A DNA stretch of 64,000 nucleotides. Origin: Diphasiastrum complanatum. Lineage: Eukaryota > Streptophyta > Lycopodiopsida > Lycopodiales > Lycopodiaceae. The notes beneath the pieces are model-generated. The model did not search any database. It was given only the letters and a program-made list of their open reading frames with translations, and was not told where the DNA came from. The position numbers and the translations under genes are program-made. Where the stretch lies: the NCBI GenBank assembly GCA_029204225.1, contig CM055101.1, forward strand, positions 62,076,955-62,140,954, read 5' to 3'. Shown here one piece after another: positions 20,301-51,960 of the stretch (position 1 is the stretch's first letter; each line of letters opens with the position of its first letter).

Positions 20301-23300
20301 GACCATGATCGCTAAAGCACGTGACTGGTTTTTCAACCTTGATCATGAAGAGAAGATAGACTGGTCAATTTTGAAAGAGTTCTTTATCAAGCGTTTTAAG
20401 CCCTTTCGCTTGATCGAGAGTCCTTTTGTCAAATTGAGTAACATCAAGATGGCAAAGGATGAACGTGTACGAGACTATATCGAGCGTTTCAAACGCCTCA
20501 AAAGTCAAGTACAAGAACATCCCTCCGAACAGATGCTCATCATTTGGTTCTTAGTCGGCCTTCCAAAATGGATTAGATGCGAGCTTATATCCAATGATGA
20601 ATATATGAGCCTAAAGCTAGCTATGTCTGATGCCATCAAGGAAGAAGATGAAGGATTAGATGTTGACGAATCCAGGAAAAGACGAGCACCACGTGCTCCT
20701 CTCCATGAGTCAAAGCCGATCGAGAATATCCGAGATTAGCTTTGGAAATCCCAGTTAGAGTTGTTTAATAAGCAACATCAACTGTAGATGGAGAAACTCA
20801 CCAATGAGTTTCAAGCTACCCTGAAGTCTATCCAAAGCAGTATGCCTGGTCGGTCAAACCCTGCACAGGTACCTTATAGACGAAAACTAATATGGTGCCC
20901 ACACTGTCGGGCTACACATCCTGTTGATGCTTGTCCTTCATATCCGCCTATCCAAGCACATACAGTCCAACAATATGAAGCACAACCATCACATTCTCGA
21001 CATTCCTTCACTTATCCCAAATATCCACCAGAAAGTCCAAACCCACTAACCATACAAGATGGCTACACCGTTATACAAGGGCCACTGCACACCAGATGTT
21101 TCATCTGTGGTGAAACCGGCCACTTCATGGTTGATTGTCCAGTTAAGACCCAGTACCATGCTGAGTGTCCAGACTGTATCAGAAAACACAGTTTCAAAGA
21201 CTGTCCAAAATAACCAACTAAGATCCTACCTACCCGTCATGTCAGTTATGAATCACAATAGGATCTTCACGACAACAAGACGAGCACTATAGCACCCTCC
21301 CACTCAACCTGCTGCTCAATTGAGAAGTTTCTTGTAAACTTCTACATCACCATCCAATACACCAGCCCCATAATGCAAAAAAGACAATATGAAATCAGTC
21401 ATTTTTGAAAGAAAGTGAAACCGATATTCCGTCATATGCTACAATGTCCAACCAAGAGCAACCTCCAGAGGGAATTGACGGTTTTTCTCCCCTTCTACAA
21501 CCTCAAATCTATTTGTCTTTCCACATGCTGATAAGATTTCCAATGTGCCAATACACAATATTTCTCGGATTCGGAAATTCAGATAGAGATTCGGTTCTGA
21601 ATCTCTTGTTCACAGAGGTCCTCAGGACATAGTACCTCAATAATACCTGCATCTCAAGCTATATCTTACAACATCTACTATCAACGATGATAGATTCAAG
21701 TGTTGCTACCTGCCTTGTTTTTGGACAAGGGCTTTTGAGAGTTTTTCATTACTCTACAAGATCAATGCAACATGAAATTGTCCAGTCACCTTATACAGAG
21801 TTTCGGATTTTTGCGCATCCACCAAATCTGCAAAGTATAGATCACATCATAGTTGCTTCATGAATCTCATTGTCATATTTATCTCCGAGTCAACTACAGC
21901 AAGATCAAAACAAATTTAGTCAACGAGTTTCAACTACGTGTTCCACATGTCAATCCAATCCTGAGCATGAACAGTTACCAGCAACAACATCCCCACCAAC
22001 AGATTTTTCTTTTGGGGGGGGGAGAGAGTGGATTTGCTTGGGTCCACATGAGCAGTTACGCTGCCAGTTGCAAAACTCTTCGTATTTCATGTCTTCAGAT
22101 GTTCGAGTTCGCGAACATGTTCGTCAGTCGAGGGGCCTTAGGATATTAAAATCTTACGTACACAGATTGATGGAGGTGCAGGTGTTGATATTGTGTACTT
22201 TGAGAGATGAACCAGCACAACAAAATCCCTCATAGATTGCTTGTGAGAAAATGATTCGAATTAATTTGGTAACTCATGCGGACCCAAAGTGTATATCCGT
22301 CACTATGAAACATCATAAATTTGATGAGCTTTCTGTGAAGTCGAATACCCGATAAAGATATATATATGCAGCTAACAATATAGAGATTATTTTTCAGATC
22401 AGAAGGTGCTTTATACTCAACTTGTAGCCATAGTAGGCTTGGAGCCACCCCTCAAATTCCAGTTCCGATCATGCCACAGTTCTTTCCTCCACACTGAGAT
22501 GACACAAATATGGATACAAGGATTCGGGCATGGACCAGGGTGGAGCCCCCAAAGTCGTAGAAAAACAGTCAGTTCCACAAGCAACGAAGCAGGTCCATCT
22601 TCATCAAGGATCACACCATTGTTCAGATGACCAATCAACGTCAAGAACCAGATCCAGAGTTTTTTAGCACAACATCCTCATGAGTCCTCGCGTGGTGGTT
22701 GGGTCATCAAGTTCAAGACCTCTGAAATCGAGGCCGACAAAGAATTGGATAAAATACTCGCATTGGGAGAGCAGCCAGCTTGGAGAATTACAAATTTTGA
22801 AAAAACTCTGGAATCCATTAGGAGTTATGTGGCTAGCCCTTGTCAATTGTGCGTAGATCCATACTACGTACCAATGCCGCGCAGAAATAAGTGGAAGGAT
22901 TTGGGATTGGCCATGGACAAAATCACCATCCATATGCCGTACTGGCCAATCATCCACCAACCGTATAACTAGGAGATCTCAGTGGACTTCCATCGAGCCC
23001 TACAAGCATGGTAGTGGGAGTATATTCACTCTCCTGATCCAATAGTGAGGCAATCGGCGCTGTTTGCAAAAGATCTCACTCTATTGACGTCCGTGGCAAT
23101 GCGATGGGATGATTGTTTTCCCACTTTGGCATTCGATCCGAATAAGGTAAGCTATTTTCATTGTGGATCTTAGTGTTAATGGAGTATGTTAATGCCTAAT
23201 GTTAATGGATGTTAGAGTTAGATCTGGATCTTCCATTAATGCTAAAATCTGAAATATGCTATCGCTCTCATGGAAACGAATCTACGCATGACAACTAACT

Positions 23301-25684: not shown

Positions 25685-27659
25685 TGGTCTCAGAGCTATA
25701 ATCTCACTCTTTGATTTCCAAGACGGACTTAGAGCTTACATTATCAGAATAATTGTTCTGATAAAAGGTAGATACATGCTAAAATTGCTTCCAAACATAC
25801 AATCTACTATATGCATACACTCATCTTGAATTTCCAGATGGATTCACAATCACAGTCAGCTCTAATGGTAGACAAACTCGATGGTTCGAATTACCACCTA
25901 TGGAAATTTAAGATGAGGGTAGTACTGATTGACAAAATTTCTAGCAAGTTCACACGTGTGGGGGATGATCCTTACATGTGAATGATCTTATTAAGCTTTA
26001 TGATTAGCACACAAACTGATTCTAGATTGAATAACAAGATCTAGTACATAATTTAATGGCTTAGTCACAATCTAGCATGCTAAGAATCAAAGAATGATAG
26101 CTTTGATCACAAGAGAAAAAAAGTACAAGAATTTAGTGTACGAGCATAAGCCTCAACACGAGTTAGAGAGAGAAAGAGAGAGCATTATTCAAGCAAATGA
26201 TAGTGTAGATCCAAAATGGCATGGAATAGCTTCAAAGCTTGGTTCTTTTTCAAATATTATGAGAATGGCTACACATATTTATGGAGTTTGAGGTAGCTCG
26301 AGGTAGAACCACATTCATCCACCTTCCATCCACTTCTATGAGTGAAAACTAGAGTATTAGTGACATTTGTCACATCTCATGCATGCATTTCTATCTACTT
26401 TTACCAAGTGTCTTTTTTTTTTAACTAGAATTGTACAAATCATCATGCATGTGTCCATTTCACTTTGTGCATGCCTTGCATGTCACTATGGATCACTTAC
26501 AACCATTGCATGTGATATGCCACGAGTTTCTACAAGCATATTAATGACATTTCTAAGTCTATAATCTATATGCAAGTTGTATACTACCAACTAGACTTGA
26601 GAAACCCATATAGCTCGAGTTCCTTCTAGGCCAAATTTGACATTTACATTATGAAACAACAAACTTGCATAGAGAAAACTTTGTAGCAAGCCTAAAGTCA
26701 AGATCGATGATTTTTCATTTTCAACACTCCTCCTAAAAACAATCTATATGTTGACTTGAACATGGATCTTGGTATTATTCCAAGATTGGCTCTATGCTTG
26801 ATGAAGGAATTTTTGCTCAAAGGTTTGGTGAGCAGATGTGCAATACAAGATGATGTGTCGATGTGCTCCAAGTAGATTTCCCCTCCAATGAGCTTCTCTC
26901 TCATGAAGTGATGTGCAACCTCGATGTGTTTGCTCCTTGCATGAAATATTGGATTGTTGGCAAGGGCTTGTGCTGAAATATTGTCACACATGATCATAGG
27001 TAGATCATCTTCTTTGATTATCTTTAGTGCCATTAGCAACCTCTTGATCCAAAGCACTTCTTTTGTTGTAGTAGTGAGTGCCCTATATTCAGCTTCACAA
27101 GATGAGAGTGATACAGTGTCTTGCTTTTTGGAAAGCCAAGATATCAAGTTTCCTCCAAGATATATGACATATGCACTTGTAGATTTTCGATCTGCTTTAT
27201 CACTTGCAAAATCTGAGTCAGAATAGCCAACTATAGAAAGATCTTCACTTTTATATAACAAACCATAGTCATAAGTTGAAGATATGTACCTAAGTACCCT
27301 TTTGGCCATTTTCCAATTATGAATAGTAGGATTTTGCATAGCTTGGCTCAACTTATGAACACTAAAACTTATATCAGGCCTAGTTATAGTGAGCCAAATT
27401 AAGGAGCCTATAAGACTCCTAAAAAGAGTGATGTCCACGAAAGATCTTTCCTCACTTTTGTTAGGGTCTTTTACAATTTGCTCCATAGGAGTTTCAATAC
27501 ACAATCTAGCATATTGAACTTTTTTAACATTAAAAGAGCATACTTGGATTGACATACAAAAGCTTTCTCATTATGGAAGTCAATCTCTAATCCTAATACG
27601 TAATGAATTTTTCCAAGATCTTGCATCTTGAATTCTTTTCCAAGTGCAATTTTGGTTTC

Positions 27660-32528: not shown

Positions 32529-33749
32529 TGAAGAAACGAAATGTTTCCAACTACAAAGCCTTGCTAGCTTTCAGCCCTCAGCCCGACGAAGACATTCCCG
32601 ATTTTGAAGATTTGGAGACATGAAGCACAAAAGGTTTCGCGAACACAAAAGTCAAAGGAGACGAAGACGAACGATTTGCGAACACGAAAGATCCACGAAC
32701 GAGAGAAAGGCATACAAAATATGTTTTGCCTTCACGCTCCAAAGAGTACCAGCTAAGATCATGCAAGTACCCAGAAGTACAGATTCTGAAGAAACGAAAT
32801 GTTTCCAACTACAAACCCTTGCTAGCTTTCAGCCCTCAGCCCGACGAAGACATTCCCGATTTTGAAGATCTGAAGGCATGAAGCACAAAAGGTTTTGCGA
32901 ACACAAAAGTCAAAGGAGACGAAGATGAACGATTTGCGAACACAAAAGATCCACGAACGAGAGAAAGGCATATGAAATCTGTTTTGCCCTCACGCTCCAA
33001 AGAGTACCAGCTAAGATCATGCAAGTACCCAGAAGTACATATATCTGATCTGATGGTATGATGTCAACAGATACAGTTTAGGTTGTGGCTAATCTGCCAC
33101 TCTTGTAACTCCTTGACTAGTTGCTTAATCACTCTAATCTTAGATTTACATAGAGCGACCATCTTACTGGATGATACTTGACATATAGATCAACAGAATA
33201 CACATACAGTGTAATGTAATAGTCTGATGCTGGTAACCAATCAAGACGAAAAATATAGAATACTTGTCCGCCTGCATGCGAAGACAATTCTGTCTAGGAT
33301 CAGAAGACCCAACTGTCCGCTAGTAAAGCGAGACGATTACTCGAGAGATAACCGCGTTTCTCTCATGCCAATGCACTGCGTGGGTATGCACGTAGTGCTC
33401 AAAGAATCAGAGAAAAGAAATCAATAGACGATATTGTAGCCTTCGCACACATATCAATTTGTCTTGTGTCTGATCTCAAATGCAAATGTTTCTGCTGTTA
33501 GTCTGAGTTTTTTCTTGTCCATTTTGAATTTCGCACTTTGGTTGAAACTATGTTGAATGCTGTATTAATTTTATGAACGTAGATCAGTAGTGAATGACTA
33601 CAATCTGGAGGACTGTAGGAGTGATTCAGTTGGCCGTGTCCAGCGATCGCATCTGAACTCCATCCGAGTTGAAGAGAGTCGTGACTGATTCGCCTTCGTC
33701 AAACTTTTGTGAATGCGACGAATTCATCAGTCATCACACATCCCCAACA
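32529..33749. mobile_element. Solo LTR inserted in the 5' LTR of copia copy B
   Basis: A 1,221-bp unit with borders TGAAGAAACG and CCCCAACA, flanked by perfect 5-bp target copies AGATC (32,524-32,528 and 33,750-33,754). The empty site is preserved in the other LTR of copy B at about 26,037 (AACAAGATCTAGTAC), which proves both edges. It holds a 258-bp tandem duplication. Its family and strand are uncertain; TGTTGGGG at the right edge, read on the minus strand, looks like an LTR start. Confidence 0.9.
32530..33045. repeat. 258-bp tandem duplication inside a solo LTR
   Basis: Two head-to-tail copies begin GAAGAAACGAAATG at 32,530 and 32,788. They differ at roughly fifteen sites or fewer, so the duplication is fairly recent or was present in the parent LTR. 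Confidence 0.92.
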
Positions 33750-35547
33750 AGATCTAGTACATAATTTAATGGCTTAGTCACAATCTAGCATGCTAAGAAT
33801 CAAAGAATGATAGCTTTGATCACAAGAGAAAAAAAGTACAAGAATTTAGTGTACGAGCATAAGCCTCAACATGAGTTAGAGAGAGAAAGAGAGAGCATTA
33901 TTCAAGCAAATGATAGTGTAGATCCAAAATGGCATGGAATAGCTTCAAAGCTTGGTTCTTTTTCAAATATTATGAGAATGGCTACACATATTTATGGAGT
34001 TTGAGGTAGCTCGAGGTAGAACCACATTCATCCACCTTCCATCCACTTCTATGAGTGAAAACTAGAGTATTAGTGACATTTGTCACATCTCATGCATGCA
34101 TTTCTATCTACTTTTACCAAGTGTCTTTTTTTTTTAACTAGAATTGTACAAATCATCATGCATGTGTCCATTTCACTTTGTGCATGCCTTGCATGTCACT
34201 ATGGATCACTTACAACCATTGCATGTGATATGCCACGAGTTTCTACAAGCATATTAATGACATTTCTAAGTCTATAATCTATATGCAAGTTGTATACTAC
34301 CAACTAGACTTGAGAAACCCATATAGCTCGAGTTCCTTCTAGGCCAAATTTGACATTTACATTATGAAACAACAAACTTGCATAGAGAAAACTTTGTAGT
34401 AAGCCTAAAGTCAAGATAGATGATTTCTCATTTTCAACATTGATGGCCAAGGAGCTTTGAAAAATAGTCACTAGAACCGAACTACTACCCAGTGTCGATG
34501 AGCAAGCCATTTCTAAGTGAAAGCTCGAGGATAGCAAGGCCTTCGTCTTGATCACACTTAACATCTCTGACACACAAATTGGCCACATCAGACAAGCCCA
34601 ATCTTCGAAAGAGGATTGGGATATATTAAACACACTATACGAAGTGAGTAATGTTACTTCAAAGCTGCATTTGAGGAGAAAATTCTTGTCACTCAAAATG
34701 ACAAAAAGTGATTCTATTCAAAATCATATTAATCAATATAAGACTCTGTTAGAGCAGATGGCGGCATTAGGTTCAACGATCAAAGACTCTGACGTTGTAA
34801 TGACCTTATTGTCTAGTCTACCATCCTCATATGAAAACTAGGTGATGATTATTTCCACACACTCAAAAATTACATTGTCCATAGTCATAATCATGCCACT
34901 GCAAGAGGAGACAAGAAGGAATGGAGCATCCTCGTCCTCCATCAACGACTCGCAAGATTATTAACAAAGAAGAACACAAGGAGGCAACATAAGAAGAAAG
35001 TTGTCCGACAATCTGACGCAGCCACAGAAGACCCATAATCGATAACCTGCTCCAAACAAAAAAAGACTCTTCTGTAGGTACTGTAAGAGGATGAACACCA
35101 CACATGATGTACCAGCTAAAGAACATCCACTATGCATACAATGAAGTATCATACCTGAGAAACTGTAGTTAGATCAAAGTTCTATGGTCAAAACTATGCC
35201 AAAACTAGTTGAAGAGGGAGTGTGAAAAATTGTCAACTAGTTTGGTTTTTTATTTTGCAAATTTGGAGGCCAAAAAAAAATCTCAACTTAGAGATAGTTT
35301 CATATTTGTTAATAAGGGCCTAAATTTTTGCACCTAACACGCTTCCACAAAGGTAAATCTAAAACCCAATTAATTTATGCATGGCTATGGAATCGATTGT
35401 GTCGATCCAGTGAATTGGAAGTTGTGATCAAGTAGGGCAGACTTCGATCTGTCAAAGTCGGTACGAATATGACATAGGTAGTTGCATGCACCGAGGATTC
35501 CAAGCATCCGCTCTTCCGTTGTGCCACGATGTCGTGATATCCCAACA

Positions 35548-36060
35548 GTAGGGTGGCACATAGCCAGGGAGAGTCAGCAAATGCTAGGAGCCAAGAGGAG
35601 CAGGGGATGCTTTGGTGTTCGACTTGTCTAGCAGGATGGTGACCATGATGGAAGACATCAGGTGAGCATAGTATGTGGATGACAAGTCCATTGGGGTGGC
35701 ACTCAGGGAATGATCTCTATCCTAAGCATAGACCTCCTTTCCAAGGTTCTTAAGTAGTTTCCATAATTGATATAGAGAATAGTGTCCACATTGGACATTT
35801 CACTATTTCTTAAATCAATTTTACACGTGAGATGTAACTAGGACATGAAAATCCAAATAGAATGTCATTGTTATGGTTCCTCCATACTTCAAACTTTGAT
35901 ATCTCTGTAAAATAAAAGTAACCAAACAATAAATGATAGTTATCATCCAATGCTTACATGTCTCCTCCATTTTTGTCCTTCCTTGATATGTATCCTCCAT
36001 GAAAATCAATGAATGAGCCTCCATCTCCATCTTGTCATAAGATATCATCAACCCTTTATG
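35548..36060. other. No gene recognised
   Basis: Sequence between the 3' LTR of copy C and the LTR of gypsy copy G3. It may include the outer part of the G3 LTR, whose far edge I could not place. Confidence 0.35.
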
Positions 36061-39000
36061 AATTGATCATGAATGAGTGTGTAGTGGGTTTCTTTCCTTG
36101 CCTAACCTGAATCTAAGTCTAGTCAATCTAGCATCAAAGAGACGGAAGTTAGTTGTCACACATAGGTTCGTTCCCATGAGAGCAATAATATAGTTCAAAT
36201 TTCAACATGAATGGAGGACCTAACACTAACATCCATTAACACTAAGAATTAACACTACATCCATTAACCCTACTTCCATTAACCCTAAATCTACAACAAT
36301 GATAGAAACTTACTCTTCTCTCTCTCCATTTCTCTCTCACAAAATGCATAAGAAATAGCAATCCCAATAATGATCAAATCCAACAATTAGCAAATACCAA
36401 AGAAAGCATGAGAAATGGAGGAAAAGAGAGGAAAAGCAATGACATTCATTAATCCATTTCTAAAGGGAACCAATCTGCTTTATTGAAATGAGAAAATGAA
36501 CATGAGGAGCCACTCGAGTTGGTCCCTTTTTATAGTAGAGAAGATGACCCTGGCCTCTGAATCCTATTGGTCTAGTCTTGCCTCTCTTTTTATTCAAATT
36601 TAAGAAAGTGTGAGAACCATCAAAATTGGAAGAAAACCCAACTTTATTCACTAACTTGACAATTAGGCCCTACGACATTAAAAGTCCCGCAAAAAGGCCT
36701 AAAGTCCTTTATTAACTTTTAACTAATCAATCAAATAACTATGTGATCATCGGGTTGGACTTACACACACAAGGTGCTAAATCCCTCTCACTTATTAACT
36801 AGGGTTAGGATTGCCTTGGGATCCGCAAACCCTCCAACAGTATCCCCCACCAAAACTGGTGGCGGTCCCACGACACCTGCAATATGCAGTTATTGGAAAC
36901 TTTTATTGGCTTCGCGCCGAATCTTAATTAAATGATACTGCACCTTCTCCATAAAGTCAAGGCGTGCAGTATTGAAATCCAAATTATGCGGCAGAAAACA
37001 ACGGTGGGCTCCGACAATCCACTTGGAAGTTGTCCATGAGGTGAAGCGGGATTCCCAAGAGCCTCCCATCATAACCGCACAGAAATATAGTCGAGCAATC
37101 GGCAGCTGATCTTTGATTTGCTCTGAGGCCATTGGCTTATTTGGATCAAATGCCAGGGTAGGAAAGCAATCATCCCATTTGGTTGCCACTGATGCCAACA
37201 GAGTTAGATCTTTTGTAAACATTGCCGATTGTCGCATTGTTGGATCCGGAGAGTGGACATACTCTCTCTGATATGCTTGTAAGGCCGATGAAAATCCACT
37301 GAAATATTCTAGCTGTAAGACTGGTGGATGATTGGCCAATTGGACGTATGGATGGTGATTTTATCCATAGCCAATCCCAAATCTTTCCATTTTTGTCTTT
37401 GTGACATTGGCACGTAATAAGGATCTACCCGCAACTGGCGAGGGCTGGCGACGTAACTCCTAATTGATTCCGGAGTTTTCTAAAAAACCGTGATTCTCCA
37501 TGCCGGCTGCTCTCCCAGTGCAGGTATTTTGTCCAATTCTTTGCCGACCTCGATCTCGGAGGTTTTAAATTTGAGAACCCATCCACCACGCGAGGACTCA
37601 TGTGGATGATGCTTTAAGAAGGTCTGGATCTGGTCCTCGATGCTAATGGGCCTTTTGAATAAATGGTCTGTCCTTGATGAGGATGGACCCGCTTGTACTA
37701 CCGGTATAGTTGGCGATTGATCTGCTAGATCTGGAGCTCCCCCCTGGTCCATGCTCGAATCAACCCATGTGTCCATCTGTACAGCTTCTTGGCGTGAAGG
37801 GGAGAATTGCGGCATGACCGAGACGAAGATTTGTGGTCCGGCTTCCAACACTTGAGCGGTGGCTTTTTCATAGGCGTTGATGGTCTCTTTTGCCTTTTCC
37901 AACTCGATTGAAGCTGCTCCTTTGAACCTATCAAAGCGGCCTTGGAATCCCTGAAGGGCAGTTATCAAAGCGGCCTTGGAATCCCTGAAGGGCCTTGGAA
38001 TCTACCTGATCCTGTGCAATTGTCAGGGCATTTTGTAGGGAGCTGATGTAGGTTTCCAAGCGATCAACTTGTTGCTGGGCCAATGTCTTTTCACTTTCAG
38101 CCTTTTCTTCATGTTGCTTGGCTATCTTCACCTCTCGATCCAGCTGGACAATTTTCTGGCTGATCAGAGTGTTTTCGGATCCTAAAACAGAGATCCTCTG
38201 TTCCATTTCTTTTCTTTTTTTATCCAGCATAGACCGGATCACTTGCCCAAGGCTTGAAACTAATCGGGGAGCATCACCAGAATCGACAGTCATGGAGGTG
38301 ACAACAACAGGAGATCCTGATGGTACTGTCCGTGGTAGGCGTGGAATAGGTGCCAAAGTCTCTTCTTCTTAAAAATATCCTCATCTTCAAACCCTTCAGG
38401 CACTATGGCGTCGAACTGCTTTGGTGACTTGACAGTTGTGTCGACCCGAAGTGTGGCTGGGCTACCTTGTGTGGGTGGTTGCTGACTGGCATCTTTGACA
38501 CCAACATTAGTGTCATGGATATGCCCGAATCCTCTTCCAGGGGATTGGGATTCAAAGGGTGCTGGGCTCTGGGGCATTTCAAAGATTTTGGTGGCCCCAA
38601 GGGGGTCGGAATCATCAAACATATCCATGAAGAACTGTGTGTTGGGTGAGGTTGCTTCGGTGTGCGGGGGTGAGGCGGCCTGGGCAGCTGTGATGGGAAT
38701 GGTAGGCTCAATGGTCACAGCCTGTCCTTGTATGGAAGCAGAGGTGAGGGAAGCATCAGAGACAAGGGGAATGGGAAGTTCAGTGCGAACAGCAGCAGGG
38801 GGTGGAAACGCAGTTGACGAGATATGCCTAGTACGACGTTGTGACGCGGAAGAACTTGAGGCCTGGTGAGATGACTCGGCTGGTGCTTCTTCGTAAACCG
38901 AAAGCACATAATCCAGGTGAAAGCCATGGATTCTATTTTCTAAGTGAGAAGCGGCTAAGAGGGACAATAGAGAGCCAGTGGCAAACTGCTACTTTGTATT

Positions 39001-41183
39001 GGCCTTAATAGCTCGCTTGAGCTCACCAGAAACAGTCTTGAACTAGTTATATGGTTCAAGAGGGGCTTTGGCCAACTTGATGTGGGACTCCACTATCCTG
39101 TGAAGGATTTGAGATGTGATGCGGTCTTTCATGAGGTTGCCAACCATCAGAAAATGATTCAACAATTGGGAAGCGGCGTGGATGGAAGGCTCAGTGATGG
39201 CTTCCAGAAGGTAACCATCATTAGTCCAATGCAGATCGTTGGTGAGGTCAATGTATGGCTTGATGGCCTGTTTGGCGTGCTTGTAATTGGGTGAGGCGTG
39301 CGTACCGGATGAGATTCCTATAGCTGTAAGTGTGGCCTCAGTGACGCACACCTTGTGTGTGGCTCCTTGGAAGGTAATGTAAAACTTGGATTTCTCTTTC
39401 TTCCACGTACTGAAGGCAAGAGTGATGAAATCCATATTGATGCATCCCGAAAAGGCTCTCTCATGAATACCCATTGTTGTAAGTAGAGGCTCCGCAAGGG
39501 TCATCCACTGAGTGACCATGCTTGTGCTAGGAAGAATCATGATGTCCGTTGCAGATGGGACATCACGATGGATAGTATAGCGTGGAGACTGGGAAGTATC
39601 GATAGAAGACATGATGATCAGAAAGGAATTATAACCGCGTGAGAATGTATCAGAAGACAATGCAGGAAATTTGGAAGGCTTTGGTCGCAAGAAAAATTCA
39701 CAAGAGCTTTGCTAGCACAAGTGAGGAATGAATCGAATTCAGCCAACTTATAGGTGAATTTGGTGGGTCCATTACACTGAATAGTAGTTGGGCTGATCAG
39801 TTCTAAACAAAAATTTGCAGGCATGTACAGTACTGTAAAAATAGGTTATAAAAATCTCGGCGAAGGTTTCTAGGGAACTGAACCTATCAGGCGGACGTTT
39901 TTCAGGACTGGCGAAGGATGAACCTTCGCCCAGGAGGGTCCTTCGCCCAGGTATTGTCATAAATGCTTTTTTCCACTATCTAAACCTATGGACAACGTAA
40001 TTTTGACATTTTAAGATCATCTAGCAGGTCGGCGAAGGTTCATAATGATGTTACGATGCTCGGCGAAGGTTCCCAAAATGGCATATCATTGAACATTCGT
40101 CTAACTCAAAAATTGAATTTTCTCTTGTAAACCTTCGCCTACCTCAATTTAGATAAATCAGGGGTGGATGTACGGTCTGAGAGCTCAGCGAAGGTTTTTG
40201 ATACTGTATTGGTCAAATCGACCCAAAACAGTGGTCTTCTAAGTCATTTTCCATAAAAATATTGTGCTTTTGTTTTCTTATGTTGATGACTTCTTGACTT
40301 TTGCTCACCAGTCTTTCCTTATTATTTTTTTTCTACTGTCTTTTTCCAAAAAAAAAGTCAGCAAATTAAATACTGAAAACAAAAAACTGAAAACAAATAA
40401 AATGAAAAAATATATTGAGATCAAGCTTGCTGAACTGGCGGAGCAGGCTACTGAAACTTGCATAATCGGCCGCCATTTACCGGAGTATCAAATCGTTTCC
40501 CATCCAAGTGCTCAAGAATTACTGCGCCATAGTTCAGGATTTCCTTCACTTTATACGGGCCTTCCCCAGTAAACTTCAACTTACCCTTGATCAGCTTGGT
40601 TTTGTACATCAATGCAAGATCTCCTACTTCAGATATTTCTTATGCAATTGCCGATCGTGCCATGCCTTGCGACGGGCTTTCTCTGCTGCTAAGGCATGAA
40701 CTGCCATCAATCGGATTTCACATAATTTGTGCAACGCAGCATGGTGAAGTTGTAAAGACTGATCATCATTTAATCGTTCCGTTGCTGCTATGCGTAAAGA
40801 TGGGATTAAAAATTCAATTGGCATAACAACATCTTGACCATAAACCAGTTGAAAAGGTGTTTGATTTGTACTATTTTTGTAAGCAGTTCTGAATGCCCAT
40901 AATGCTGCATATAAATTATGTTCCCATTCAGACCGACTCGCTTCTACTGTCTTTGTCATAATGGTGCAGAGAATCTTATTGGAAGATTCAGCTTGGCCAT
41001 TCCCTCTGGGATAATGGGGAGTACTAAATTTGTGTATAACAAAAAAATCTTCCAGTAAACACTAAGTAGTAATGATTCCGAAGCGATAATGCCTCGTTGT
41101 ACCGCCCTGTAGCAGGTTTCACCAGCCAAAAATTGTCCCGAATTTGGCCCTACGGTACCCAAATGGTGAATGTAGCCCATCAC
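36061..41183 (-). mobile_element. Ty3/gypsy copy G3 (Tat-like): integrase, extra ORF and 3' LTR; broken, 5' half absent
   Basis: Minus-strand gypsy fossil. From right to left: end of the integrase core (41,183-40,960), integrase C-terminal region (LWAFRTAYKNSTNQTPF at about 40,880; KFTGEGPY near 40,575), a spacer (39,700-40,400) rich in CGAAGGTT, an extra ORF region (39,690-36,890), a purine tract (GGTGGGGGA, 36,850-36,842) and a 3' LTR starting TGTTGGAGGG at 36,840 with a TATA-like ACTATAAAAAG at about 36,530. The extra ORF has an N-terminal domain (about 39,640-39,050), a Pro/Ser linker, coiled coils (about 38,240-37,860) and a C-terminal domain (37,620-36,890) that recurs in copy G2. Extra ORFs beyond integrase are known in Tat elements. 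Broken in several places. Confidence 0.75.
39850..40195. repeat. Cluster of CGAAGGTT / AACCTTCG motifs in the G3 spacer
   Basis: About eight copies of an 8-bp motif, often extended to TCGGCGAAGGTT or CCTTCGCCCAGG, occur in both orientations within 350 bp between integrase and the extra ORF. Spacing is irregular, so it is not a simple tandem repeat. Confidence 0.65.
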
Positions 41184-41389
41184 TAGGTCACCTGCACTCC
41201 GTTCGATAGAATGGTGATGAAAACTCCCCGAAACACATTTCTCCCTGCTCTGTGACGTTGCTCTAAGGAGCCAGTTTCAGGGGTCATTTTGGCCCAAGGA
41301 TGGCCAAAAAAGGTGCCTTCTAGCCATAGTTAGTCCCTTTGCCATTTGCCCTAGCAAAATGAACTGTATTTTCATTCTGAAAATTTTTA

Positions 41390-41740
41390 ATGAAGAAACA
41401 GCATTTTATGCCCTTCGGGTCCCTTTTGGCCCCAATGAAATTTTGTAATAAAGTTAATGCTAAGTCTGCCTTTCAATACTTCAAGGGCCCTCTTCAATTG
41501 AATCCAATGGTGGCCTTTGATCGAATGGATCACGTTGCTCCCCGAAAAGGATTCAAACCAAGCACTGCTGATTGCAATGTTTATTCAAGGTCAGTGCAAC
41601 AATCCTTCATTATCATCACCTTGTACGTTGATGATACGTTGCTCTTCAGCAACAATACCAAAATGATCAAGGATGCAAAACATATGTTGTTCTCAGAATT
41701 CGACATGACTAATCTGGACGAAGCTCACTTCTAGGTGAAT
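41390..41740 (+). mobile_element. Copia reverse transcriptase fragment
   Basis: About 41,525-41,735 gives GFKPSTADCNVYSR followed by a YVDD catalytic box and DMTNLDEAHF, a copia RT signature. The preceding 130 bp are less clear. It is isolated and old. Upstream, 41,184-41,389, shows nothing recognisable. Confidence 0.7.
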
Positions 41741-41986
41741 CTATGTATAGGGAACTTAGGGCTATGCATGGCTATGTGCCCGAGATGCTTTTGGCTCTAT
41801 ATATTGGGTCCAAACTCGCCCTACTCCTCATTATGGTTGTGGATTCATTGCTAGGCTCTCACTCTACATGGCATGCTTCTTGTTCCTTGGCTTGGGGGTG
41901 AAGCTTCTAGAGTTTGATTGGATGCTTCTACTTGGTTGGGTGGTTTCTCCAGTGTGTTATCCATTGTGTTTGTGATTTGTAAGCAG

Positions 41987-42492
41987 GATCTAGATTAGTA
42001 ACAAGGTCACTCTCACATGATGTTCACTGGAACATAACAACCCTGGAAGCCCTCCATACTGCCTATGAGGACTTTCAAGTCCAATTCTTTGAGGACTCCA
42101 CGCTTTGCACAGTGCACGCTAAGAGAGTTACCCTCATGCTTCAGGACATGCATCTTGTCATGAGGTTGAGGAGTACATACGATCAGGTCTTTAAGAGTGG
42201 CTTCACCTCTAGGCCACCACCTACACAGAGAGGTCCTGTTCCTCAACGAAGAAGGAGGAAGCAGACCAAGCCCACTAGGCCTGCCAAGCAAAGGGTGGTA
42301 CTCAATGAATCACCATCCCCCCCTCACATCTCTCGTCCTTTGGTTGGACCATCACACCAGTCTGTAGTGCCTTCTTTTCCTTCCACCACCCCTAACTATT
42401 CAAGTAGTTCCTCTTCCATTCCCTCCATTCCATCCCACAATAATGAGGATATGAACTCGACTTTAGATAAAATAATATCGGATCTAGATTAA
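41987..42492 (+). CDS. CENH3/H3-like histone-fold exon with a basic, Ser/Pro-rich tail
   Basis: An acceptor-like TTTGTAAGCAG ends at 41,986 and an open frame runs to a stop at 42,490-42,492. Residues about 3-55 follow the C-terminal half of histone H3: RLV (alpha-1), a loop with Trp (HDVHWN), LEALHTAYEDFQVQFFED (alpha-2), LCTVHAKRVTLM (loop 2) and a RLR (alpha-3). By my alignment about half the positions match plant H3 or CENH3. Trp in loop 1, EDF and RVTLM are CENH3-like; the family's canonical H3 has AEAYL and RVTIM. Then come PQRRRRKQTKPTRPAKQR, a possible nuclear localisation or DNA-binding patch, and a Ser/Pro-rich tail. Missing: the N-terminal tail, alpha-N and most of alpha-1, and a start codon, so an upstream exon or truncation is implied. 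The Ulp1-like reading follows at once but in another frame. Confidence 0.65.
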
Positions 42493-43630
42493 GTTTAATA
42501 GATGATTTTTATAAGGATCTTTGTGTAAGATTTTCTATTCATCCCAAAGATTCATTTTTGGATTATGAGAAAAATATATTTTTTGATGAGGATGTTGCCA
42601 AAGAAATTGATAAGCTAGGAGGTCAATTTTCTTTTGTCTAAGTTCAATTAATTATGTAAATCACATAGATAAAGACTTTTGTGATGCCCTAAAGGAGAAG
42701 ACCTCAGATATATCAGATCCAGTTGTGGAGGCTGGTTTGATATATTTTGTAAATAGATGTAAATCCGACGATAGTAAGGACATTGGAGTTGTGTTGTCCT
42801 TTTTTGCACACAAGCTTCATAGTCCAATTAAGACGACGAAGTATCTTCTCCATACAACCTCAGAGACCAAAGTCTTTATTATTCCATACTGCCAAAAGTA
42901 AGTGATTACATAGAATATATTCTAGTAATATTTTAATAGGTATTGTAATTCCTTTAGTTTAACTAATTATCTCTTGTTTGCAGTAAGCATTGGAGTATGC
43001 ATATAATCTCCCTTAGGGAAGATTCAGATGGGATCATTAATCCCATCTATTTGAAGATGAACTCCTTAAAGTCTACCCATGCCGAAATGGACATGATGTA
43101 CAGCAGAATGTTGCCATTTTTGCCAAGGCCAGATGGGGCCACTGTAAATAGCCACCTAGAGATTGTTGATGCAGAAGTAAGTATTTCTCATCAACTATCT
43201 GATAGGTAATATGATCTGTTTTTTTCAGAGTGCACTACTAACCTATTATATGTTTTGTGATTGAAGTCAGCTCAGCAAGATGATGGACATAGCTGTGGAT
43301 GGTTCTCCATCTGCAATGTACAGGACTTCTTAGAGTGGTACATCATGCAATCCAAGGCTCCAGATATAGAAAGGTAAATAGACTAGTAAATGGCCTAACT
43401 AAGTTATTTTCGATTTGGTTTCTGATAAGTCAATTGACTCGGTTCTTTTGGATTTGCAATATAAATGTCGAGCATTTTCAATGAATGAGATATATGAGTT
43501 TTGTCAAAAGATGTTGGTGAACTTATTATCTCATGCAACACCCAGTCCAGCTGCGGAAACGGGAGGCCAATCAAGTCCACAACTAACACTAGTGCAGGGT
43601 GGAGATAATCCATATTACTTTGAGCTGTAA
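42493..43630 (+). CDS. Ulp1-like cysteine protease (peptidase C48), intron-containing
   Basis: C48 proteases cleave SUMO and other ubiquitin-like modifiers. Reading starts at SLIDDFYKDLCVRF (about 42,493), passes a short intron or frame change near 42,622-42,668, then continues to 42,897; intron 42,898-42,983 (GTAAGT...TTTGCAG); exon 42,984-43,176 with the catalytic His in NKHWSMHII; intron 43,177-43,266; exon 43,267-43,373 with the oxyanion Gln and nucleophile Cys in QQDDGHSCGWF, spaced as in yeast Ulp1. The two later introns keep the frame exactly. Oddity: the usual Asp (in DSL) is Asn here (KMNSLKSTH), so activity is doubtful. A final open stretch to 43,630 (ending NPYYFEL) probably forms the C-terminus, but its join is unclear. 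It could be a host gene, or one carried by a DNA transposon, since plant MULEs of the Kaonashi type carry Ulp1 domains. Confidence 0.72.
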
Positions 43631-43808
43631 ATAATAGATTAAATAGAGATATACATTTTTGATATAATGCCCTGTGGATAATATGGGCATATAGAAAGAT
43701 AGAGACAATGAGAAAAAAGCATCCATTGTTAAATACATGACACACATGTACATTCTCATAAAATGAAAAAATATATTGATATTTATGAGAGCTTTTACAA
43801 ATCTTGTA

Positions 43809-44446
43809 TCATGATTGCTCTATTATCTGAACAATTCCGTCCAAATCTTTGCATTTGATTTTCTCTTCATGTCTTTTACGTATCTGCACAAACATACATT
43901 AATTAGATTACAGTTAGTGATCCGAATATTGACAAAAAGGATAATGAATACAAATTAATATACAAACTCATGGATTTCACATACCAATTTTCCATCCAAT
44001 ATAAAGCTGAAATATTGGGGGATATCTTGTTGTAAAAGTGTCAGTTCCATTCTAATGTAGAATAAGGTCTAGTCTTGCTCAACCTCAATAGTAGTAAGTA
44101 AATCCCCATTTGCCATGATATCAATGCATATACGATCAGTGTGTCCAATGCTGTCTAGATCTTGATCTAATGGGGCCCAAATACCATTGTGTTCTTTCCA
44201 TCTCTGATAATGAAACACCATACTAAGCAGTTGCTTTTCTATACTGTATCTAAATGATATGGATGAATGTTTGATTCTACAAGAAATATCTGCAGTGGAT
44301 CTTATATCCCAACCTTTGTCCATGAATTTGAATAAAAAATCATCTGATAGATTTTTGCAAACAGACAATGTGGGAGTTTGATGCACTTCCATGTTTGAAA
44401 AAGAGCTGACAAACAATGACATTGGAACAAACCAGCTTAAGTGCAC
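43809..44446 (-). pseudogene. Unrecognised gene with a ubiquitin-like pattern, convergent with the Ulp1-like gene
   Basis: Minus strand. A long exon (44,446 to 43,985) and a last exon (43,883-43,809) are joined by intron 43,984-43,884 (GTATGT...TTTGTGCAG) in phase 0, ending IIEQS-stop. The C-terminal 70 residues follow a beta-grasp pattern like ubiquitin: RICIDIMANGDLLTTIEVE, then an IR..L helix, DIPQYFSFILDGKLI, and a closing strand IVQII. One in-frame TAG lies at about 44,069-44,071 inside this domain, so the copy is broken or the stop is a sequence error. The N-terminal part (about 125 residues, with WDIRSTADISC and HYQRWKEHNG) is not recognised. It overlaps neither neighbour and ends about 180 bp from the Ulp1-like gene. 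Fold assignment is by eye and tentative. Confidence 0.42.
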
Positions 44447-44454
44447 ATTTCTTG

Positions 44455-46835
44455 ATCTAGTACTAGTTTTGAGTGACTTTTATGTACATTTCAAGAATGG
44501 AGTTTGTTCCATCTTGAAAAATGATAACTGCATAGCTAGTGGCATTAAGGAAGGTAGACTTTTCAAGTAGGATGCTAATGTTGCAAATGAAAGTGTGAAC
44601 TTGGCTAGGGAGGAGCTAACTCAAGTGGAGCTTTGGCATAAGAGATTAGGCCATCCTAATCTTCAATCTATGGAGTCAATGGCAAGCAAGGAACTAGCTC
44701 TCGGCCTACCAAGAGCTTTCAAGAAGTGTGGAAAGATGTGTGAGGCATGTGGCCTTGCAAAGTCACACAAATCTTCTTACAAGAGATCTTCATCAAGATC
44801 TCTCTCTCCCTTGGATCTCATACATTCTGATGTACATAGTTTTCACATGCAAGTAATGGAGGTGCCTTGATGTATGTAACTTTTATAGATGATTGTACTA
44901 GATCAACATGGATTGAGTTACTATCAAAGAAAAGTCTTGTTTATGAAGCTTTCATTAAGTTCAAGTCTCTAGTAGAGAAACAACTTAGTACTTCCATCAA
45001 AGCACTAAGATGTGATAATGGAGGAGAGTACACCTCCAATAAAATGAAAGACTTTTGTGAGATCAATGGCATTAGATTGCAATACACTTGTTCCTGCACC
45101 CCCCCAACAAAATGGGGTGGCCGAGAGGAAAAATAGGAGTCTATGTGAGTGTGCAAAGTCTTTAAGACTCGATGCATCACTTCCCATCTCATTTTGGGGA
45201 GAAGCTATAACATGTGCTAATTACTTGCGTAATAGATTTCCTAGTAGTGCTATAGATGGGATCTCATCTTATCAAGCCTTGTTTGATAAGAAACTCAATG
45301 TAAAAGATTTTAAGATCTTTGGATGTATTTGTTATGTTCACATCCCTTTGGAGACAAGAAGGAAGGAAAATGCTACCTCCTTCAAAGGGATCTTTGTTGG
45401 CTATGGAGAAAATAGCAAGGGCTATAGGATATATGAACCTATATCCAAGAAAGTAAAGGTAATCAAGGATGTACTTTTTGATGAGTCACAATTTGCTAAG
45501 AGCTTATCAAATGGATATAACCCATTGTGCATTGAAGATCTTGACAAACCCGAGGATGGAGACATGGATCCAAGTCAAAAGGGGCCGAGAAGATCATCAA
45601 GAAGCAAGGCCGAGCCCTCAAGGCTCACCTATGTGGACAAGGGAAAGCAAAAGGAAGACTCTACACCTTCTACCTCTTACTCCTTCTTAGCTACATTGCT
45701 TGAAGAACCATCATCTTTTGAAGAAGGATATAAATCTAAAGTTTGGAGAGATGCAATGCAAGTAGAGTATGATGCATTAGAAGAAAATCATACTTGGAAT
45801 CTTGTAGTTCTTCCAAGAGGGAAGAAACCACTTGCATGTAAGTGGATTTATAGAATAAAGTACAATCAAGATGGATCTATTAGTAAGTACAAAGCTAGGC
45901 TTGTTGCTAAGGGATTTCTTCAAATAAAAGGGTTGGATTATGAAGAAACATTTGCACCTGTAGCTAAGCTTGTAGCTATTAGATTAATCATTTGCATTGC
46001 TTCTTTGTTCAAGTGAGATCTCTACCAAATGGATGTGACAAATGCCTTCTTGAATGGCTTCTTAGAAGAGGAAATCTACATGATGCAACCCGAGGGCTTC
46101 ATCGAGGTTGGTGAGGAGCAAAAGGTGTGCTACTTAAGGAAGAGCCCATATGGCTTGAAGCAAGCACCTAGAGCTTGGTACTCTAGGTTGCATGATTTTC
46201 TCTATTCCCTTGGCTTTGTACTAAGTGCTTGTGAACCTTCTTTATATTTCAAATGTAATGAAGGAATGATCATCATTTTGGTACTTTATGTTGATGACAT
46301 CATTTTGACAGGAAATGACGATGAAGGCATAAGCAAAGTAAAAGTTGATTTATCTAGTGAGTTCAAGATGGTAGATCTAGGCTTCCTAAAATTTATACTT
46401 GGGATAGAAGTGTCTAGAAGTAGCAATTGTACTTTCATAAGTCAATCTAAGTATTCTACTTCCATTCTTGAAAGATTTGGTATGAAAGATTGTAAGGGGA
46501 TTGACACCCCTATGGACCATGTTGTGAAAGCAAGTAATGAAGGTGATGAAGCATCCTTTGAGGACATCACCCTCTTTAGGAAGTTTAGAGGCTCTCTAAT
46601 CTCTTTGACCATCACTAGACTTGACTTAAGTTTTTGTGTAAGCAAATTGAGTCAAAGTATGCAAGCTCCTTTAGTTCATCATTGGAAAAGTGCCAAGAGA
46701 GTACTTAGATATGTTTCTAGTACTAGATTTTTTGGCATACTTTATGAAGGATCTAACTTGCACTTGAGAGCCTACTCGGATTCGGATTTTGCAGGTGACA
46801 AGATGGATAGGAAATTCATTTCAAAACATACAGAG
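44455..46835 (+). mobile_element. Ty1/copia copy E: GAG-pre-integrase to RNase H, broken
   Basis: Plus-strand copia fossil closely related to copy B. Parts: end of protease region and GAG-pre-integrase (LWHKRLGHPN, near 44,630), integrase core (about 44,800-45,250), RT (about 45,740-46,500; YVDD box near 46,287) and the start of RNase H (YSDSDFAGDKMDRK, near 46,770), after which it stops. Only a few lesions, so it is relatively young, but both LTRs are absent. Confidence 0.85.
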
Positions 46836-46895
46836 AGTTACAATTCAGGCCTTAGCATAGGGTACTAGGGCAGAGATTTGTGCCATACTAGCCCC

Positions 46896-49306
46896 TGTCA
46901 ACAATCAGAAATGCAACATCAAGCATTCACCATAAACAATCACCATGTAGGGAGATGGAAGAAGAACATGCAATATCACTCTATCACACCGCAACATACT
47001 GAATGTAAAATGTACATATAAACCCTAAACCTTGATAGAGAGGGAGAACCTAGGAGTAGACTACTAGACTAGCCAACGACTAGTTACAGCTGGTAATAAA
47101 GTACATCGTAAACAGCAACTAAGAAGTGTAACAATGAGGTTTATCATTGATTTCTAACACTCTCCCTCAATGATAAAATTACATTATTCTATTCTTATTA
47201 GAGTACAAAACTTTTCAGATTTACATCTACCTAATGACTTAGTAAAAATATCTGCCATGTGATCTTCAGATTTACAGAAAACAAGATCAATGGCTCCATC
47301 AAGAATTTTCTCTCGAACAAAATGATAATGTATTTCGATGTGCTTGGTTCGAGCATGTAAAACTGGATTTTTGGCAAGGTGAATGTAGCTTTGATTGTCG
47401 CAAGATATAGTAGTTGCATCCACCTGTGGTTGACCTAAATCCACAAGCAATCTTCGTAACCATACCGCTTCTTGTGCAACATTGCTGAGTGCTCGATATT
47501 CAGCTTCCATCGAGGATAAGGCTACTGTAGGTTGCCTTTTGCTGTTCCATGAAACTGCAGCTGTATCATAACTGAATGTATGACCACTAGTAGACCTTCT
47601 GTCATCAATATTACCTGCCCAATCAGCATCTGTATATCCTATCAATATTGGCACTTCAGGCTGATCATACTTCAAACCAAAATTCAATGTCCCTCGAATG
47701 TATCGGAGAATACGTTTAGCAGACTTCCAGTGTGTTTGACTAGGATCTTGCATAAGTTGACCAACAACACCAACAACATAAGAAATATCAGGTCGTGTGT
47801 GTGTCAAATAAATCAAACTACCCACCAGCTGTCTATACAAATAAGCATCCACTTTCTCAGATTCATCATATGTAGTAAGCTTCATGTTGACATCCATAGA
47901 TACACTCAAAGGCTTACAATCCTGCATATTGAACTTATAAAACAAATCTCGTGCATATTTGCTTTGTGTAAGAAAGACCACATTTTCCTTTTGCCATACT
48001 TCAATGCCAAGACAATAGTGCATCAATCCTAGATCACTCATGTCAAAAGCATTGAAAAGATCTGATTTGATTTCATCAATTAAGCTCTCATTACTTCTTG
48101 TAATAATCAAATCATCCACGTACAACACAATGAACACTATATCTGAATCTTGCCTTAGAATGTAAAGATTAGGATCAGCATCACTCATTACCATTCCCCT
48201 TCGCTTAAAGTGTTCATCAATGCAAGAGTACCACGCCCGTGGTGCTTGTTTCAATCCATAAATAGCTTCGTTGAGCTTACAAACAAGGTGCTCTCTCCTT
48301 GGTTCAATAAATCCTTGAGGTTGTACTACGTACACCTCTTCATCCAGCACTCCATTAAGAAAAGCAGAGGTAATATCCATTTGCTGGATCTTCCAACTCC
48401 TTAGCTCGTGCGCTTGGATCCGATATCGGATTGGAGCGCAGATGTACAACTGCTCGGGTTTCTCTTCAGCTAGCGTGCTTGGATCCGATATTGGTACGAA
48501 TATAAAAAGAGAGAATATAAGAACTTTCAGAGGGAATATTCAAGATTTCCTACTTCGGCGCGACGGCTACGCCGACTCCTCTTTGCTTAGATTTCGAAAC
48601 GAGTGATCATTCAAATAGACAGATATCAGTAATGTGAAATGTATGAAGCCTCAAAGCTCTAAATGGCAGTACTGGACACTATCTGGTATGATTTGCAGTA
48701 TCCCAAACAAACAAATGAGAGATTTCTTGGCACAACTCTTTGACAAATGATACTTTTCACAAAGACTAAAAAAAATATTGTAAATTTTTTCTCACCCAAT
48801 AGATTTTCAATCTGTCTGATGCTGCCCTGGCCTTTCCGATGCCTCCAGGACTGTGTCTTCATTTCCCACTAATAACTGTGAGCTCCAAAACCTACAAAAT
48901 ACATCAAGAAGAATTTCTTCCAGCCATTTTTGTCTCTCCAAGCTTTCACCTCCTGTAAAGGACTTTCTCACTTCGTTGCGGAGCCTGTGACAAGCTGTAT
49001 CCATTGATCAGGCCATGCAGGACTATCGTAGCTCTGATACCATGTCAACAATCAGAAATGCAACATCAAGCATTCACCATAAACAATCACCAAGTAGGGA
49101 GACGGAAGAAGAAAATGCAATATTACTCTATCACACCGCAACATACTGAATGTAAAATGTACATATAAACCCTGAACCCTGATAGAGAGGGAGAACCTAG
49201 GAGTAGACTACTAGACTAGCCAACGACTAGTTACAGCTAGTAATAAAGTACATCGTAAACAGTAACTAAGAAGTGTAACAATGAAGATTATCATTGATTT
49301 CTAACA
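46896..49306 (-). mobile_element. Short Ty1/copia copy F with both LTRs and target duplication
   Basis: Minus-strand element of 2,411 bp. Both LTRs are 264 bp (46,896-47,159 and 49,043-49,306), flanked by perfect 5-bp target copies GCCCC (46,891-46,895 and 49,307-49,311). Primer site TGGTATCAGAGC at 49,042-49,031; purine tract GAGGGAGAG next to the left LTR. The only recognisable coding part is RT-RNase H (48,449-47,184), one open frame of about 420 residues with QQMDITSAFLNG, YVDD and HARTKHIEIHYHFVREK. The LTRs differ at ten sites (3.8%), suggesting an age of a few million years at usual plant rates. A shortened, non-autonomous copy. Confidence 0.92.
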
Positions 49307-49311
49307 GCCCC

Positions 49312-49965
49312 TTGGACTCTACATAGCATTATCATAGTCCAAACACTATGAGGCTTGGGCAAATCCATGCCATTCAAGATTCCAAGAACTAAACCCTAAT
49401 TAGAGGTCTAGCATACTCAATGCTACCACAATTTGTTTACCTAGCACTCCTATATCTTATAGCATCATTTTACTTTATAAACACCTTAGAACCGTAATTA
49501 GCATTCCGCATCATGTTTTCATTGAAATACTAATCAAATCAAATCAATAAAACATCTCTTTTGCATCATGAGGGCATTACCATCTCATATAATTATGGGT
49601 ATCGTTATCAACACAACCTCTTGTAAAGAACCCTAAACAAAAGTTTATGTAAGCAAACATTAATGGTGTTTAAGTTTTGCATTGCTTTGTACCTATATAC
49701 GTGGTGAAGAGATCTCTTGAAAACTACCCATCCTCCAACAAGTAGGCATCACACTTCCTTATATACTAGTTATTCAACACAACAATGGTAGGTTCTAATT
49801 GGATGTTTCATATTTGGTAGGAATCCTTTTAACAAGAGACATGTCAAATCCTACGTTAACATACCTTCAAAACGAGTCCACCTCTTTGTTGTGACATTGC
49901 CCAACAACAACCACCAAATTTGCTTCCTAATAAGCTTTGAATACTTGTCTATCAATGTTCATCAT
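49312..49965. other. No gene recognised
   Basis: AT-rich sequence between two LTR elements, with only short open frames and no repeat structure visible to me. Confidence 0.45.
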
Positions 49966-51960
49966 TGTGAAAAAAGTACAAAAAGACCAAGAGTGGATCC
50001 TAATCTGATCCTCAAGAGGGATTGGTTGTCAGATTACTTGATCTATCAATCTACTTCAGATTAAGATCAATCTAGATCAATTCTAGACACAAAATCCTAA
50101 CAAGAACAATCATTAATTGAAGGTAAGTGTACTTTCTGGTTTCACACGTGTGAAACACTGTCTGAGTACGGACTCCAACCTGAAAATCAAGTACACATTG
50201 ATAGAACCAATCAAAACAAATGTAGACAAATGGAGAGAATCACTCAAAATTGCTTCCAAAGCCAAGATTGGTGTCTCACACTGATTATGGCCAAATGTGG
50301 CTCTATATATACAATAAGTAGGAGCTCGTGGTACTGATCATCCCTTTGATCCCACATGTGTGAAGGTGCTTTGTCATATGATGATTCATCATGCAAAACT
50401 GACACTTGGACAAAACCTTCTATTTTGAGCACTTTTGGTCCATTTTCCTTCTATATGGAGATCTACTTGAAAATCTTCTAGAAGTCAAAATTTGTCTACT
50501 TCAACTTATTCCACACATGTGAGCTGTCCTCTACACATGGGATGTGACACCTAATCAAAAGATGTAGCTCATGCAAGCAATAGACTGATGCCATGTGTCA
50601 TATGTCTAGAAAACTAGTTTTTGGCCTTTTTAGCCACTAGAACTTGAATTAAATCATATGTACAACCTATATGATTATGGTACATGACAAGTACACCATT
50701 TTCACACATGGGAACAAGCTCCACACATGTGTGTTTATCTATATACAAGATTTTTGGCCTCTACCAAGCTTATTTTTGCATTTTTCACACTCCTCCTCAA
50801 AAATCTAGCTTGGTAAATCTAGGTTGATGGAAAACATGATGATCTTGAACTTGACTCCATGGGCTGAATTGGTCTTTGCTGGTTCAAAAGGTGTGAAGAT
50901 CAGCCAATGAGATTGATGTTAATCTGAAATCACCATATCCATGATTGTGCTTCTTTGATGTTGACATCTATGATGAACTTGAGAGCTTTGCACCATCCTA
51001 GCACCTCCAAAATTGATTCCTTCCAATTTTCATGTAGATGCTTGACCTTGAGGCTTGCTCCTTCTTCATGTGCATGTTCCTTCATGAGAAAATAAAGATT
51101 TATTCTTTACTTATTAGGATCACAAAGATCTAACATCATGTTACCATGATCTAGAGAATTAGACTTATCCAAATTGGCAAGACTATGCATGCTATAATAA
51201 CAAAGTGTTTGCATCATATCTTCATGCCTGTTTACCATGCTAATCTCAGATCCAATGAGGCTAAATACTTCATTATGGAGATAAGTGTCTTTAGAAGATG
51301 ATTCACTTACTCTCATAAAGAGTTTACAATTTGCCTCAATACAAATTTTCAAACTATGAGTGAACAAATCACGTTTGCTCTTACATGACTCAAGAGCATA
51401 CATTTGATGAAATAACCATTTGCTTTCTAATTGATTTAAAATCAATTTTAACCTTTTAAGAACATCATATATGTTCTCAAGAGAGACTTCATACTCAACT
51501 AGTATGGCTTTACTCCAATTTTGAGATGCAATGATCTCACTAAAGCAAATTGATTTATCAAATGACATAGGAGAAGTAAGTATGAGATGTATACCACATG
51601 AGGTATGCTCCTCTTTCCCTTGAAATGTGAGCCACATGGACTCAACTATGTTTCTTGAGATTCTTTTTGGAATCACAACTTGAGAAGGTCTCTCCTCCTC
51701 AATCCTTGACATACTTGAACCTTGAGAAGGACTCTCCTCCTCAATCCTTGGCACACTTGAACCTTGAGATGACTCCTCAAGATCCTCTTCATGATGCTCC
51801 TTTTTGATGGAAATCCGAGACCTCCATGTCTCATAATGATCACAACAATCATGACCATTCAATATGCACTTCCTAGATGCATCAACCACAAGATTGGTGG
51901 TTCCTTTGATATATCACATTTTAAAATCAAATTCCTATAGATGAGTCTTGCCCATCAGGC
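49966..51960 (-). mobile_element. Copia-type LTR element K: 3' LTR plus an unrecognised ORF
   Basis: Minus-strand fossil. The 3' LTR is 49,966-50,789 (824 bp; ends TGTGAAAAAAG and TTTTTCACA), preceded on its strand by a purine tract TGAGGAGGAG (50,799-50,790). In the place of pol lies a 260-codon open frame (51,889-51,107) that I do not recognise. It is Ser/Glu-rich near the start with two tandem SQGSS..RIEEE repeats, then helical with several Cys. The frame stays open somewhat upstream of its first Met (KGTTNLVVDASRK). No second LTR, gag or RT was found, so the right edge is a guess. The LTR carries a cluster of CACACGTGTG / CACATGTG palindromes. Confidence 0.6.

Follow-up and report, generated by a model that had tools for sequence, protein, structure and literature searches.

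We find that a 64,000-nt stretch of forward-strand DNA from Diphasiastrum complanatum (contig CM055101.1, hereafter the window) contains an H3-type histone-fold segment that is joined to, or inserted into, an Ulp1-type gene, and that the locus is not simply an extended histone. Tentatively, we favor a reading in which a single chimeric gene, now decayed, gave rise to this locus; it would have connected an H3-type histone-fold segment through a basic, Ser/Pro-rich linker with an Ulp1/C48 (SUMO-type) cysteine protease. Such a gene was probably created through gene capture by a DNA transposon of a type in which Ulp1 is frequent in plants. On one strand, and in this order, we see the histone-fold segment, a coding-like tail and the protease boxes, and at least two frame changes interrupt this copy.

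The histone part lies in an open frame at positions 41983–42492 of the + strand (169 codons from stop to stop). An apparent 3′ splice site (TTTGTAAGCAG), read from the sequence, precedes position 41987, and we infer that a single exon (41987–42492, + strand) carries both the histone-fold segment and its tail. The first-pass annotation had placed the start of the frame at 41987; this position corresponds to the apparent exon start and not to a codon phase, and the frame read from it is not the open one. The open frame matches the Pfam core-histone profile PF00125 (E-value 1.3e-11, 45.3 bits, cut-off 26.4) over profile positions 65–122 of 122, the second half of the profile. The runner-up among the other histone-fold families in Pfam, CENP-T_C, reaches 17.1 bits and stays below its cut-off of 28.1, and NCBIfam returned no match. 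A phmmer search of the PDB retrieved 173 distinct sequences at E-values up to 1; the top relative among the best 60 of these is Schizosaccharomyces pombe CENP-A (cnp1, 1.2e-10), with H3s coming next. We also scored the sequence with a small HMM made from seven H3/CENH3 rows, five of them taken from alignments, and obtained 70.1 bits for the real sequence versus a maximum of 10.5 bits in 2,000 shuffles. The H3/CENH3-like histone-fold match proposed in the first-pass annotation is thus borne out by the Pfam and PDB searches and clearly separated from shuffled sequence, and we conclude that a genuine H3-family histone-fold segment is present at 41992–42174 (+ strand).

The segment is identical to an H3 reference at 23 of 61 positions, and 12 of these 23 identities cluster within 18 residues (FFEDSTLCTVHAKRVTLM; Fisher p 0.004). 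It comprises only the end of α1, loop 1, α2, loop 2, and α3 and does not represent a complete H3 fold (αN, α1, α2, α3). A tblastn search of the window at E-values up to 10 did not recover the upstream part of the histone (αN and most of α1), and an upstream exon may be missing. A second copy of the histone segment, or of the four Ulp1 pieces described below, was likewise sought in the window by tblastn, and this search yielded only short, weak matches (best E-value 0.013). No relatives of the histone ORF were found in bacterial and archaeal genome contigs or in viral contigs, and one Ulp1 piece likewise had none in the bacterial and archaeal contigs. The structure prediction suggested by the first-pass annotation did not lend support to the fold: a single-sequence AlphaFold model, calculated without an alignment and hence a weak test, is poor (mean pLDDT 54.7, pTM 0.32), and no clean histone fold can be recognized in it. 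The same model places a helix at the end of the tail, with low confidence.

Comparison with plant CENH3/CENP-A and with H3 (PF00125) reveals a common signature in α2, loop 2, and α3 (FED..LC..HAKRVT.M..D). In contrast to these proteins, the locus lacks the N-terminal tail, αN and most of α1, as judged by tblastn of the window, and adds ∼105 coding-like residues followed by the Ulp1-like gene. The first-pass annotation had preferred CENH3 over canonical H3. The loop 1 Trp (codon 42028–42030) is shared with the CENP-A rows and aligns with their loop 1 Trp, and together with the RVTLM motif it leans toward CENH3, which we take as a leaning and not as a result. Loop 1 is longer in CENH3/CENP-A than in H3. 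In our alignments, loop 1 of the segment has the length found in H3 and is devoid of the extra residues present in the CENH3/CENP-A rows other than cnp1. Full-length BLAST gives 57.4 bits for Arabidopsis CENH3 versus 47.4 bits for H3. When only the cores are compared, the scores are 60.5 bits for H3.Y, 57.0 for cnp1, 53.1 for H3, 52.4 for Arabidopsis CENH3, 51.2 for a CENP-A chimera, 50.8 for H3.3, and 49.3 for rice CENH3, an order that, by these sequence scores, is mixed between H3 and CENH3. In a tree of 11 rows, our query forms an end branch 2.55 long and is placed in no supported set.

The histone-fold segment is followed by a basic, Ser/Pro-rich tail or linker (42172–42489, + strand), which has 106 codons without a stop when the Ser common to the histone part is counted. 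It contains an Arg/Lys patch (RRRRKQTKPTRPAKQR, 42247–42294), after which the sequence is rich in Ser and Pro. Dinucleotide shuffling of the tail gave an equally open frame in 37 of 5,000 cases; for pieces of the same length drawn from shuffled local DNA the figure was 1 of 3,000, and none of 5,000 shuffles left the whole frame open. The ∼105 further residues noticed in the first-pass annotation, with their basic, Ser/Pro-rich character and Arg/Lys patch, thus look coding-like. In a simulation that allows substitutions only, drift from H3 to 40–50% identity introduces ∼4–5 stops into 168 codons, whereas none is observed. The fraction of positives among the changed positions is 0.34 when compared with H3, a value reached by 11–18% of neutral simulations, and 0.14 and 0.17 when compared with the Arabidopsis and rice CENH3 cores, where the neutral mean is 0.25–0.27. 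By these estimates, the amino acid changes are not clearly conservative with respect to H3, and they fall below the neutral mean with respect to the CENH3 cores.

Directly downstream of the tail, on the same strand and after one frame change, we located a decayed Ulp1/C48-like gene. Because of this neighbor, the "extension" of the histone is most likely the linker of an H3-fold/Ulp1 chimera. The earlier description, a C-terminally extended histone amid retroelement debris, holds for the histone fold and the tail, but had missed the protease gene. Upstream of the C48 domain lies a coding-like stretch in another frame (42495–42638, + strand; LIDDFYKDLCVRF..., LIDDFYKDL...), which belongs to no Pfam family of its own. 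It is followed by an Ulp1/C48-like exon part ending in ...KVFIIPYCQ (42641–42897), a putative intron with the consensus ends GTAAGT...TTTGCAG (42898–42983, read from the sequence), and an exon that contains the His box KHWSMHIISL (42984–43204; His at 42988–42990). The Gln/Cys box SAQQDDGHSCGWF is found at 43267–43374 (Cys at 43294–43296), and an open frame extending to a stop (43403–43630) is a possible C-terminal remainder and the weakest part of the gene, all on the + strand. Since a consensus intron lies inside it, the protease part is not a processed copy.

We stitched the last three C48-like pieces (those at 42641–42897, 42984–43204, and 43267–43374) into a partly spliced model with an X at one join, and this model matches Pfam Peptidase_C48 with 25.8 bits (E-value 1.1e-5, cut-off 20.7). 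A rougher stitching of the Ulp1 pieces gives 19.5 bits, under the cut-off, and a hand-scrambled control (n = 1) has no Pfam match. The His-box piece alone reaches 17.4 bits, below the C48 cut-off, the Cys-box piece alone gives no match, and addition of the C-terminal remainder does not raise the score (25.4 versus 25.8 bits). Two weak alignments with SENP2 (E-values 0.087 and 0.57) both cover the His box, and the one with an E-value of 0.57 also covers the Gln/Cys box. The His, Gln, and Cys boxes of the catalytic center are present, and in the weak SENP2 alignment the residue at the Asp position is not an Asp. The C48 match is weak. At least two frame changes break the gene, one within 42471–42494 and one within 42614–42640. 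The putative exons before the Cys box amount to 478 bases, and the join is one base out of phase.

We read these parts as one gene because they share strand and order, are in direct contact, and have overlapping open frames. The open frames of the histone tail and of the Ulp1 part overlap at 42471–42489, so that a single small indel would part them, and both may derive from a single ancestral reading frame. The same junction suggests another history. A perfect 12-bp direct repeat (GGATCTAGATTA) flanks the histone segment exactly, with copy 1 at 41986–41997 and copy 2 at 42480–42491 (+ strand), where the frame change between tail and Ulp1 part is located. Any repeated 12-mer occurred in this 700-bp stretch in 44 of 2,000 shuffles, and the G+C content declines around the second repeat copy (0.46 to 0.26). 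The perfect flanking repeat suggests an insertion: a 482-bp diverged H3/CENH3-like coding piece with its tail may have landed within an exon of another gene, one (of a transposon) that carried Ulp1. Repair of a break, for instance, could have placed it there and produced the target-site-like duplication of 12 bp, in which case histone and protease would never have formed one working protein. With the segment removed, the 3′ splice site would run straight into the Ulp1 frame, as an insertion would predict. However, we see by eye neither poly-A nor inverted ends at the segment, and the frame is open across its whole length in the direction of the Ulp1 part. The first repeat copy also encodes the SRL of SRLV, a sequence that by eye agrees with the RLV motif of H3/CENH3 as well. 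We regard an insertion as the main rival reading, somewhat less likely than a chimeric gene.

Rather unlikely, in our view, is that an ordinary gene for CENH3 or an H3 variant left the histone part as a fragment, which decayed beside an unrelated Ulp1-like relic, with tail and adjacency being accidental. The position of the locus among transposon pieces, the not clearly conservative pattern of changes and the finding that CENH3 duplicates are common in plants (according to the excerpted text of PMC8603533) are consistent with such a history. They are opposed by the long open tail at the point where H3 proteins end, which few shuffles of the tail reproduce, by the absence of stops in 168 codons at ∼40–50% identity and by the direct, same-strand contact with the Ulp1 part. 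A mere chance resemblance to histones, for which only the poor single-sequence AlphaFold model might be quoted, is extremely improbable, and we rejected it on the strength of the shuffle control and of the Pfam and PDB searches.

The locus now lies between LTR-retrotransposon pieces. A copia reverse-transcriptase fragment upstream ends at 41731, and a copia pol region downstream starts near 44,556 with a gag-pre-integrase domain. We considered that the patch could be an insert in one copia element and ruled this out, as the upstream reverse transcriptase and the downstream gag-pre-integrase start are not collinear. A six-frame scan of ∼36,000–51,000, with stops masked, detected no transposase family at E-values up to 0.01 (elsewhere in the window, coverage consisted of 10 chosen stretches), and no inverted repeat of at least 25 nt is found within 36,000–50,000. 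Because transposase and inverted repeats were not found nearby, we infer the origin in a DNA transposon from the known habit of Ulp1 in plants. KI-MULEs are non-TIR elements.

Several other features of the window are recorded here in their own right. Two 267-nt direct repeats, 96% identical and 2,147 nt apart (46893–47159 and 49040–49306), surround a copia reverse transcriptase on the opposite strand, and two 300-nt direct repeats of identical sequence, separated by 7,713 nt (26033–26332 and 33746–34045), are likely the LTRs of a young retrotransposon. The gene lies outside an inverted repeat with 409-nt arms (22587–22995 and 37286–37694), which are 79% complementary and separated by 14,290 nt. 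Among retroelement pieces, an open frame of 222 codons on the − strand (39043–39711) has no Pfam match at E-values up to 1. Neighboring tandem arrays with units of ∼24 and ∼25 nt (18633–19072 and 19172–19652) are open in at least one frame, and an ORF in this region (19173–19517) has no Pfam match. An ORF at 1362–2204 (− strand) with two KH-domain matches (KH_1, E-value 1.3e-28) probably represents one exon of a host gene for an RNA-binding protein.

Ulp1 domains have been described in MULEs (Kaonashi/KIU) and in CACTA elements (excerpts of PMC13317346, PMC6117577, and PMC2528002), which treat it as a domain captured repeatedly; the excerpt of PMC13317346 calls its function in plant transposons unknown. 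Like the Kaonashi (KI/KIU) MULEs and the CACTA elements in these excerpts, our locus combines an Ulp1/C48 domain containing introns with a transposon-rich setting. It differs from them in that no transposase or inverted ends were found nearby and in its histone fold, the word "histone" occurring 0 times in the available text of PMC13317346 and PMC2528002. Human SENP6, yeast Ulp2, and plant ULP1d belong to the same broad protease family and act on CENP-A/CENH3 loading or on CCAN proteins (PMC12903445, in part). As far as the text available from PMC12903445 goes, these enzymes reach the kinetochore via other proteins, and a histone fold within the protease is not mentioned. Among the matches listed, none describes a histone fold joined to an Ulp1 protease, as judged from the titles and the starts of abstracts of open-access papers.

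If one chimeric gene did exist, its intact ancestor might have acted as a chromatin-addressed deSUMOylase. Its histone-fold segment, together with the Arg/Lys patch, would anchor the protein to chromatin, perhaps through an H4 partner and perhaps at centromeres, the linker would provide reach for the protease, and the protease would strip SUMO-like modifiers off nearby chromatin or kinetochore proteins. We base this idea on the SUMO dependence of CENH3 loading in plants, where SUMO cycling by ULP1d acts on αKNL2 and on CENH3 loading (PMC12903445, in part). A bolder proposal, which we consider unlikely, is that a transposon-borne or host family combines a CENH3-like fold, a basic linker, and a SUMO-type protease into a nucleosome-addressed deSUMOylase, with our locus being a dead member. 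If this were true, a selfish element could direct such an enzyme at chromatin that is centromeric or silent. Should the locus reflect an insertion only, it would represent ordinary gene-fragment shuffling. In an element that joins a histone fold to Ulp1, chromatin targeting would be one possible reason for the capture of Ulp1.
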